Of a stretch of 45,668 nucleotides of DNA, positions 17,242 to 18,786 are shown piece by piece. Under the pieces are notes generated by a model, which saw only the letters and a program-made list of their open reading frames with translations, ran no database searches and was not told the DNA's origin. The position numbers were made by a program, and so were the translations under genes. The number at the start of each line of letters is the position of its first letter. Within the stretch, counting starts at the first letter, position 1. Source of the DNA: Candidatus Dadabacteria bacterium (GTDB lineage: Bacteria > Desulfobacterota_D > UBA1144 > Nemesobacterales > Nemesobacteraceae); the NCBI GenBank assembly GCA_009837205.1, contig VXTZ01000025.1, forward strand, positions 570 to 46,237, in the 5' to 3' direction.

Positions 17242-17946
17242 TTATAAATTACCCGTGGATGGAACTATATCAATTTCGTCTATATTCGCTTCGAGGGGCT
17301 GGTTTATGACCGACAGGACTGTTTTCGCTGTAATTTCAGGAGACATCATCTTTGCCCTGTCCCATTCTCCGGGAAGAGAATCCCAGATGTCCGTCTTGGT
17401 CGGACCTGGCAGGACGGCGGAGACCTTTATTCCTCTGTCTCTTACCTCTTCTCTAAGCGAGTTGGTAAAACCTAGGACAGCGAACTTCGAAGCGCAGTAG
17501 GCTGCCCACCCGGGAAAGCCTTTTTTTGAAGCGTTCGAACCGATATTTACGATATGGCCTCCTCTTGGCATAAACGGAAGTGAATGTTTTACCATGAGAA
17601 AGGCCCCTTTTGCGTTTACAGACATCATCTCATCCCACTGTTCGGCGCTGGTTTTTTCTACTGGACCAGTGTGGACTACGCCCGCATTATTGATCAGTAC
17701 GTCAATTCTCCCCTTTTTTTCAGCAACGCTTGAGATAAATTCCCTGACTTCCTCTTCGACCGATATATCAACGGAGGAAATCATGAAATTCCCGGCAAAA
17801 GACGATATTTCAGTCTCAAGAGAAGCCATGGTCTGGATATTCCTTGAGCAAAGTACCGTAAAAAACCCCGCCTCGAGTAATTCAATTGCGGTTGCTTTTC
17901 CTATGCCTCTTGCCGCGCCGGTTACAATCACAACTTTCTCAGCCAT
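17242..17946 (-). CDS. short-chain dehydrogenase/reductase, possibly sepiapterin-reductase-like
   Basis: Classical SDR of 234 residues: NAD(P) motif TGAARGIG near residue 10, VLINNAGVV near 80, catalytic Ser in NIGSNAS and YCASK near 145. The ATG at 17946 has AGGAA about eight bases ahead; a TTG at 17970 would be the alternative. It overlaps the end of the upstream PTPS paralogue by 8 bp, so the two are probably coupled. Because sepiapterin reductase, the step after PTPS in tetrahydrobiopterin synthesis, is itself an SDR, that role is a reasonable inference here. General 3-ketoacyl or sugar-alcohol dehydrogenase activity cannot be excluded. Confidence 0.9.
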   Translation of the reverse strand: MAEKVVIVTGAARGIGKATAIELLEAGFFTVLCSRNIQTMASLETEISSFAGNFMISSVDISVEEEVREFISSVAEKKGRIDVLINNAGVVHTGPVEKTSAEQWDEMMSVNAKGAFLMVKHSLPFMPRGGHIVNIGSNASKKGFPGWAAYCASKFAVLGFTNSLREEVRDRGIKVSAVLPGPTKTDIWDSLPGEWDRAKMMSPEITAKTVLSVINQPLEANIDEIDIVPSTGNL

Positions 17947-18370
17947 CTTGTTTTTCCTCGAAATACTCAAAATAACTTTTCGGGTTCTCCCAGACCCTTA
18001 TACTATCAAGCCTGCCCGGGACGATTTCTGTGAATTTCTGCCACAGGTATTTCCCTATATTTTCAACAGTCGATATGTTCTCCTGAAAAAAATCAATATC
18101 CCTGTCTATCCACTTGTAGTTAAGTTCTTCGATTACGGGTGCCGCCTGTTTTTCAAAGTCTATACGGTTTATGAGCATGCCCGTTTCATCGTCTATTTCT
18201 CCCCCTATTGCCACTTCCACCGTATAGTCGTGTCCGTGTCCCGCGGGATTTGCACATTTGTCAAATATGGCGAAGTTCTCTTCGTCAGACAATCCTTCCA
18301 TAAAAAGCCTGTGGCTTGCGGAAAATCTGAATATTCTCGTAAGAAGTACCTGCTCTTTTCTTTCTAGCAT
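17939..18370 (-). CDS. PTPS/QueD paralogue A: zinc and Cys kept, Asp-His lost
   Basis: Member of the 6-pyruvoyl-tetrahydropterin synthase / 6-carboxy-tetrahydropterin synthase family, 143 residues. The zinc histidines are present (FSASHR and PAGHGHDY), as is the nucleophile cysteine in FDKCANPAGHGH. The Asp-His pair that completes the family's triad (LDHKNL in animal enzymes) is Asn-Tyr here (ELNYKWID). The Glu of the late VWENP motif is kept. It starts by a 7-bp overlap with the end of paralogue B (ATGCTAG), with no ribosome binding site of its own, so it should be made by re-initiation at similar dosage. On its own the active site looks incomplete. Confidence 0.9.
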   Translation of the reverse strand: MLERKEQVLLTRIFRFSASHRLFMEGLSDEENFAIFDKCANPAGHGHDYTVEVAIGGEIDDETGMLINRIDFEKQAAPVIEELNYKWIDRDIDFFQENISTVENIGKYLWQKFTEIVPGRLDSIRVWENPKSYFEYFEEKQDG

Positions 18371-18786
18371 TTGCGGTAGTCGACGAAAAGATCGTCCGTT
18401 TCATACACCCTTACCTTGTAAAGACGACAGTCATCCCTCTCGATGATTTTTTCCTCAATCACTTCCCACAGGACCCTTGCTATGTTCTCCGTCGTCGGTA
18501 TAAGATCCTGAAAACGGGGGTTGTCCTCGTTTAGGTTCTTGTGGTCGAAATCAGCCAGAACCGATGAAATAATCTGCTTCAGATCAAAGAGATTGATTAT
18601 CATGCCCGTCTCCGGGTTTATTTCTCCTTCCACTGTGACTTCGAGCACGAAATTATGCCCGTGTCCGCCCGGCAGGCTCGATTTACCGTAGATTTCGCGG
18701 TTTTTCTCCTCACTCCAGTCTTTATTCCAGTACCTGTGAGAAGCGGAAAACTCGACTTTCTTCGTTATGAGCTTTTTAAAAGACAT
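18364..18786 (-). CDS. PTPS/QueD paralogue B: zinc and Asp-His kept, Cys lost
   Basis: Second PTPS-family protein, 140 residues, very like animal PTPS in layout. It has FSASHRYWNKDWSEEKN, GGHGHNF (zinc histidines), GEINPETGMIINLFDLK, FDHKNLN (catalytic Asp-His kept), PTTENIARVLWE and a VRVYETDD end. The nucleophile cysteine expected in the GKCNNPNGHGH motif is Ser (GKSSLPGGHGH). It precedes paralogue A with a 7-bp overlap and follows nuoM by 50 bp. The pairing with A, which keeps exactly the residues missing here, suggests a hetero-oligomer. Whether the product is a biopterin or a queuosine precursor cannot be told. Confidence 0.9.
   Translation of the reverse strand: MSFKKLITKKVEFSASHRYWNKDWSEEKNREIYGKSSLPGGHGHNFVLEVTVEGEINPETGMIINLFDLKQIISSVLADFDHKNLNEDNPRFQDLIPTTENIARVLWEVIEEKIIERDDCRLYKVRVYETDDLFVDYRKC

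Follow-up and report, generated by a model that had tools for sequence, protein, structure and literature searches.

Adjacent PTPS paralogues with complementary catalytic residues, a probable hetero-oligomeric pterin synthase of Dadabacteria

The gene pair and its catalytic residues

The window (the whole stretch of 45,668 nucleotides that was analysed, from contig VXTZ01000025.1 of a Candidatus Dadabacteria bacterium) contains on its minus strand the overlapping genes of two PTPS paralogues, in the order B, then A, followed by a gene for an SDR oxidoreductase. The features are located as follows:

18364..18786, minus strand: paralogue B, PTPS (PF01242), 140 aa, Asp-His kept, Ser at the place of Cys
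18679..18681, minus strand: codon of Ser36 of B, at the place of the catalytic Cys (coordinate derived by hand)
18541..18546, minus strand: codons of Asp81-His82 of B, retained (coordinate derived by hand)
18364..18370, minus strand: 7 bp (ATGCTAG) shared by the stop of B and the start of A
17939..18370, minus strand: paralogue A, PTPS (PF01242), 143 aa, Cys kept, Asn-Tyr at the place of Asp-His
18254..18256, minus strand: codon of Cys39 of A, retained (coordinate derived by hand)
18116..18121, minus strand: codons of Asn84-Tyr85 of A, at the place of Asp-His (coordinate derived by hand)
17242..17946, minus strand: SDR oxidoreductase, probable third operon gene; from an ATG at 17946 it shares 8 bp with the end of A

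For the SDR gene, the list of open reading frames also offers a TTG start at 17970. In the genus of the source genome the SDR gene comes after A at 12 of 12 loci, and at all of these its open frame overlaps that of A. Its identification as a sepiapterin reductase was considered and rejected as non-specific, the C. tepidum enzyme (2bd0) appearing only in row 22 of the PDB list.

Both proteins are members of family PF01242 / COG0720, with scores of 94.1 bits (A) and 122.2 bits (B) against the Pfam PTPS profile, whose curated cut-off is 22.4, and both possess the three zinc-binding histidines that are a feature of the PTPS family (His20, His45 and His47 in A; His17, His42 and His44 in B). Among solved structures, animal PTPS come closest to both (3i2b; 2.1e-31 for A and 3.8e-35 for B), and human PTPS 3i2b is also the best Foldseek match of the AF2 monomer models of A (mean pLDDT 91.0, TMq 0.86) and B (mean pLDDT 87.5, TMq 0.84). 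A classification of PTPS sub-families by motif assigns CxxxxxHGH to PTPS-II (the biopterin type), CxxxHGH to QueD and ExxHGH to PTPS-III, and calls the function of PTPS-V unclear (PMC5041015). The PTPS-II motif is present in A; B shows the same spacing with Ser for Cys, and in families with intact pairs B carries the motif itself (e.g. CTSxxGHGH). An identity as QueD (PTPS-I) was rejected, as CxxxHGH is absent and scores of 44.2 and 69.0 bits are both below the TIGR03367 cut-off of 89.25, and so was the folate type PTPS-III, as ExxHGH is absent (NPAGHGH in A, LPGGHGH in B). Of the label PTPS/QueD given in the initial annotation, the first part thus holds, with 3i2b as nearest relative and CxxxxxHGH spacing, but the second does not, E. 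coli QueD being a much weaker match for both proteins (5e-8 to 2e-6).

A and B share 52 identities over 136 aligned positions. The characteristic motifs are SASHR, KCANPAGHGH and ELNYKWID in A and SASHR, KSSLPGGHGH and FDHKNLN in B, and in an alignment with human and rat PTPS the Asp-His pair corresponds to Asn-Tyr in A and Asp-His in B, the Cys to Cys in A and Ser in B. Apart from the zinc ligands at positions 20, 45 and 47 there are no histidines in A, and apart from residues 120 and 140 there are no cysteines in B. A triad of Cys, Asp and His is therefore met in neither single chain, A being without Asp-His and B without Cys; jointly, the two proteins have all three residues. The motifs and the alignment confirm the earlier observation that the paralogues have lost opposite halves of the triad and kept the zinc histidines, and the 7-bp gene overlap reported with it was found as well. 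Since the same residue states are present in all 12 genomes of the genus in which the pair could be read, they are not due to chance; the thirteenth genome, G010, has no PTPS match. For A the median omega within the genus is 0.083, based on 63 of 66 comparisons, and for B it is 0.047, based on 62 of 66; both genes are under purifying selection there.

Genome and pathway context

The source assembly (1.69 Mb, 97% complete) contains no PTPS matches other than A and B. QueC and QueF are present in the same genome, and a QueE-like protein encoded beside queC reaches 126.8 of 206.1 bits, which is below the curated cut-off. FolE2 is found in 13 of 13 genomes of the genus, in which there is no full FolE and only one 39-position match, in G004; a loss of the pathway along with folE is ruled out by the presence of folE2. 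Genes for FolE and a sepiapterin reductase are the neighbours expected of PTPS-II. In this genus no folE lies beside the pair and folE2 is located elsewhere (G000:C22:42087-42863). In related families of the class folE follows the pair, and three genomes (G013, G019, G023) contain both folE and folE2. Two genomes of family f6 (G018, G022) have neither a PTPS nor a QueE match and have kept folE; in them QueC (about 58 of 210 positions) and QueF (at the place of folE) are matched only weakly. A biopterin route with an aromatic amino acid hydroxylase behind it was rejected, such hydroxylases being found in 0 of 57 class genomes.

Because QueC, QueF, FolE2 and the QueE-like protein are present and there is no other PTPS match, the pair A/B probably also performs the QueD step. 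By this inference it would occupy the same pathway slot as QueD (PTPS-I), an enzyme of the same fold family which differs in its CxxxHGH motif and in meeting a TIGR03367 cut-off that A and B do not. On account of the Que gene content, the pattern in G018 and G022 and the absence of aromatic amino acid hydroxylases, we infer that queuosine is the most likely destination of the product, perhaps besides an SDR-linked pterin.

Family f8, with genomes of 1 Mb, has its own arrangement. The FolE open frame at its loci (L069, L071, L073, L075 and others) encodes 285-290 aa, as against 186-218 aa at the pairs of other families, and the FolE match begins after a gap of about 300 bases from A. A third PTPS with a full triad (motifs e.g. 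CNNKNYHGHNY and FDHKNLN) is encoded at a separate place (L070, L072, L074, L076 and nine more) and forms its own clade.

Pairs and fusions in Dadabacteria and other bacteria

We sampled 57 genomes of the class Dadabacteria and read the full adjacent pair in 46. Six genomes have no PTPS match (G010, G018, G022, G023, G041, G042), and outside the pair count are also G032 (one match, unread), G029 (two matches, one read), G046 and G048 (one match each, of the third type) and G053 (three matches, of which the third type alone was read). Both triads are intact in 19 of the 46 pairs, the Cys of B alone is lost in 7, and 20 are complementary; loss of Asp-His from A alone does not occur (0), A without Asp-His always being found beside B without Cys. 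The Cys of A is retained in 46/46 and the Asp-His of B in 47/47 cases, and the replacing residues are Ser, Ala or Asn in B and Asp-Tyr, Glu-Tyr or Asn-Tyr in A. In a class tree (IQ-TREE; B and A rows joined, three columns masked, two outgroup rows), a single clade (97/91) holds all pairs with B-Cys loss, and within it A lost Asp-His twice. The order of events in Dadabacteria is thus a single loss of the B Cys and, inside that clade, two losses of the A His.

Pairs in other bacteria were collected by scanning genome_contigs with an alignment of B and keeping the best 80 of 566 loci. The scan patterns were peptides from B, one of them with Asp-His, and no pattern selected A; retention of Asp-His in B is consequently biased in this set. 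According to their titles, these best 80 of 566 loci stem from Chloroflexota, Acidobacteria, Nitrospira, Binatia and others; there are two PTPS ORFs in 62, a two-domain single ORF in 17 and three pieces in 1, folE is present in 67, and a similar SDR lies downstream in 27 and, in a 28th, upstream on the opposite strand. After exclusion of duplicated or broken loci, 75 pairs were available from the best 80 of 566: 43 intact, 21 with A lacking only Asp-His, 5 in which an intact B accompanies an A with neither half, 1 with B lacking only Cys, and 5 complementary. The complementary ones are three pairs from Acidobacteria (DH with Ser, Ala or Asp in B, Cys with RD, GH or RH in A) and two fused proteins of Chloroflexus (Tyr-DH in B, Cys-HL in A). 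Left out of the pair counts were duplicates (L001, L027, L032, L095-L098), a single copy (L063), a locus with A outside the stretch (L057) and L167, with its second gene in pieces. In this last locus, an Acidobacteriaceae pair (L167:2956-3756), the second gene is split over two frames, which represents a frameshift or an assembly error.

In order to reduce the scan bias, further samples were drawn without motifs by applying the Pfam profile to whole genomes. In the phylum of genome G060, 61 genomes were searched and the 20 with two adjacent matches taken; all 20 are fusions, in which B lost both halves (15), lost only Asp-His (3), or the pair is intact (1) or complementary (1). In 18 of 20, B has thus lost Asp-His, alone or together with Cys, beside an intact A, and judged by its residues A alone is complete in this phylum and B putatively a spent module. 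The phylum of G095 comprised 58 genomes, 52 with at least two matches, and 20 fusions were taken besides the locus of G095 itself (L229); in these fusions the B Cys is absent and the B Asp-His and A Cys are kept in 20/20, and A has lost Asp-His in 12/20, residue states that match those of Dadabacteria. Another 20 loci from assorted genomes comprised 15 single copies and 5 pairs, of which 2 are complementary. The check suggested in the initial annotation, whether the two losses co-occur elsewhere, shows for the class that A loss is seen only with B loss (20 complementary, 7 with B loss alone, 0 with A loss alone). Outside the class no general link holds: among the 75 pairs from the best 80 of 566 loci, the 21 A proteins without Asp-His and the 5 without both halves have an intact partner, and the pattern in the phylum of G060 counts against a universal rule of linked losses.

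The total sample comprises 166 B/A pairs or B-A fusions (46 from Dadabacteria, 75 from the best 80 of 566 loci). As 59 of them are fused, both modules are able to exist in one chain. Intact pairs number 64, complementary ones 40, and the remainder have lost only the Asp-His of A (21), only the Cys of B (17), both halves in B (15), both in A (5) or only the Asp-His of B (4). Every complementary pair (40/40) combines Cys of A with Asp-His of B; the mirror state and a loss of the A Cys only were each found in 0/166. When A lacks Asp-His (66 pairs), Cys is still present in 61, the exceptions being five Nitrospirota fusions; when B lacks Cys (72 pairs), Asp-His is still present in 57, the exceptions being 15 fusions of the phylum of G060. 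On the pair tree, parsimony requires 25 changes for Asp-His of A, 1 for Cys of A, 9 for Cys of B, 5 for Asp-His of B and 11 for the complementary state. These counts are limited by poorly resolved forks and cannot separate gain from loss, and genomes within a set are related. In the Nitrospirota fusions mentioned (L099, L126, L127, L141, L145), the second domain is without zinc ligands, Cys and Asp-His, and the first domain is intact.

In every one of the 40 complementary pairs, A and B alike have the three zinc histidines and the Glu; members without both halves often lose zinc ligands (5/15 B, 5/5 A). Neutral decay of a dispensable pathway, to which the absence of folE from the genus of the source genome might point, can hardly be upheld in view of these zinc ligands, of FolE2 in 13/13 genomes of that genus and of omega values of 0.083 and 0.047.

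At the place of the Cys, B of complementary pairs has S, A, Y, N, D, V, E or, once, a gap, and at the place of Asp-His A has DY, NY, HL, EY, RH, RD, GH, DG, AH, DF or GF. Wherever A lacks Asp-His (66 proteins in all), the His position is repeatedly occupied by Tyr or Phe, in distant groups (DY 19, NY 12, DF 3, EY 1, GF 1, QF 1). One could consider A as the enzyme, with a homotypic site that uses Tyr for His, and B as a scaffold, that is a structural or regulatory pseudoenzyme. The recurrent Tyr/Phe would agree with this, as would the phylum of G060 and the five Nitrospirota fusions, which took that path with an intact partner. We nevertheless regard this as very improbable: Asp-His of B is kept in 40/40 complementary pairs, yet lost in scaffold-like B domains, and in 7 of the 40 the A residue at the His position is something other than Tyr or Phe (HL twice, RH, RD, GH, DG, AH); three of these (RH, GH, AH) retain His and are only without Asp.

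As a control we examined 103 stretches with a single PTPS domain (28 of L003-L031, L063, 13 of the third type, 26 of L175-L200, 15 copies from assorted genomes and 20 low-scoring ones), with the Cys scored 3 to 5 residues before HGH. Cys and Asp-His are both present in 99 and both absent in 4, and no copy is half-lost (0/103). The control is biased toward intact proteins, many copies being best-scoring matches; the 20 low-scoring ones were added. Regarding the copies without both halves (L030, L285, L286, L287), the genome of the first (G061) has another, intact PTPS (L246), and those of the other three (G234, G241, G210) also encode B-A fusions.

These figures bear on the possibility that A and B form separate homohexamers which catalyse two steps, each needing only part of the triad, with A, for example, making 6-pyruvoyltetrahydropterin and B cleaving toward 6-carboxytetrahydropterin. 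The presence of QueC, QueF and the QueE-like protein without a QueD-type enzyme would fit such a division, as would the zinc kept by B and the persistence of pairs in which both triads are full (64/166). What makes it improbable are the B-A fusions, the lack of half-lost single copies (0/103) and the highly varied replacement residues in B and A, which look like relaxed constraint and not like one new chemistry.

In a tree of 256 rows A and B each occupy one side of a branch, with support of 89 and 91 only, and in a tree of 347 rows they no longer do so. In the latter, the fusions and pairs that were added have first domains nearest to B rows and second domains nearest to A rows, with the exception of the second domain of L230. 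A test on independent pairs, run on 146 pairs, did not reach significance (median p 0.5), with too few pairs on starred branches.

A putative composite active site

We conclude, with a probability of roughly 0.84, that one hetero-oligomeric pterin synthase is built from two kinds of subunit, A and B, and has a composite active site, its assembly, active site, substrate and product being inferred. Complementary, non-overlapping catalytic losses in co-conserved paralogues are met in the window pair and in 40/166 pairs, with the mirror state in none, and these residue patterns indicate that the two proteins very probably work together. The hetero-oligomeric PTPS proposed in the initial annotation is supported to this extent; association, activity and the term 'obligate' remain inferences. 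The recurrence of one orientation, the order of losses, the single-copy control and the low omega together support the hetero-oligomer and show PTPS here to be an old two-module enzyme.

PTPS reportedly has an intersubunit catalytic triad, which Burgisser is said to have described in 1995. In co-assembled paralogues, one site could draw its Cys from one protein and its Asp-His from the other, and the first loss in one copy would fix the corresponding part of the partner and free the partner's other part. As far as can be judged from sequences alone, the data show a ratchet of this kind. In the composite site, zinc and the catalytic Cys would be contributed by A and Asp-His by B across the subunit interface, and the opposite site, with Ser from B and Asn-Tyr from A, would be free to change. 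The duplication of the PTPS gene would predate the parting of these phyla or their exchange of the operon, the copies having remained adjacent (B, A, often then folE and SDR) or having become fused as a B-A chain. In Dadabacteria, the B Cys, which A could supply, would have been lost first, and later the A His (in the genus of the source genome also the Asp), which B could supply; thereafter neither protein would have a full triad alone. The substrate would be dihydroneopterin triphosphate produced by FolE2, and the product may enter a pterin route linked to the SDR and probably also supplies queuosine synthesis through QueE, QueC and QueF. The constant orientation points to a fixed arrangement of A relative to B, or to an old bias shared by all. 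The PTPS hexamer is described as two trimers (PMC7546909). A3 stacked on B3, a stoichiometry which is inferred, would agree with the fusions and with the three-fold barrel, provided that the triad extends across the trimers.

Some evidence stands against the composite site. The zinc ligands of B are kept in 40/40 complementary pairs and need another reason, because the site of B itself should be dead; 18/20 fusions of the phylum of G060 and the five Nitrospirota fusions do not keep the composite site; and A could work alone if Tyr replaces His. It is conceivable, if unlikely, that one hexamer contains two chemically distinct sites, of which Cys of A with Asp-His of B makes 6-pyruvoyltetrahydropterin and a site of B zinc, Ser and Tyr performs a second step. 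If true, this step might be a side-chain cleavage toward the queuosine precursor, with intermediates passing within one particle, and the zinc ligands of B, the recurrent Tyr in A and the genome without QueD would be explained.

The hetero-oligomer with a composite site can be compared with several known systems. Animal PTPS (3i2b, 1b66) is similar in sequence, fold, zinc histidines, Glu and the CxxxxxHGH motif of A, but has Cys, Asp and His in one chain. Trypanosomatid deoxyhypusine synthase reportedly is a pair of paralogues, a finding attributed to Afanador in 2018. Animal PTPS is described as a hexamer of identical subunits (PMC10767420), and two defective paralogues of the trypanosomatid synthase are reported to assemble with one working and one dead site per heterodimer interface (PMC10820115). 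The latter follows the same logic as A and B, but in an unrelated enzyme and fold, and the complementary state of A and B, found in pairs as well as in fusions, accounts for up to 11 changes on the tree. Uricase and two-domain QueF are bimodular tunnelling-fold enzymes of other families and chemistry than PTPS, with tandem domains and sites at module interfaces; in contrast to these, separate and fused as well as intact and half-lost states coexist in the B/A system. We found no report of a heteromeric or fused PTPS in the literature searched, coverage of which was incomplete, and do not claim its absence from print.

The B/A pairs would represent a natural, repeated experiment in which a homo-oligomer turns into a hetero-oligomer that needs both of its parts, with intact, half-way and completed states all extant, as separate or fused proteins, and the completed state always in one orientation. 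For genome annotation they are a warning, as motif rules for single chains would call A and B inactive or misfile both, and the queuosine pathway of these bacteria would then appear to be without QueD.
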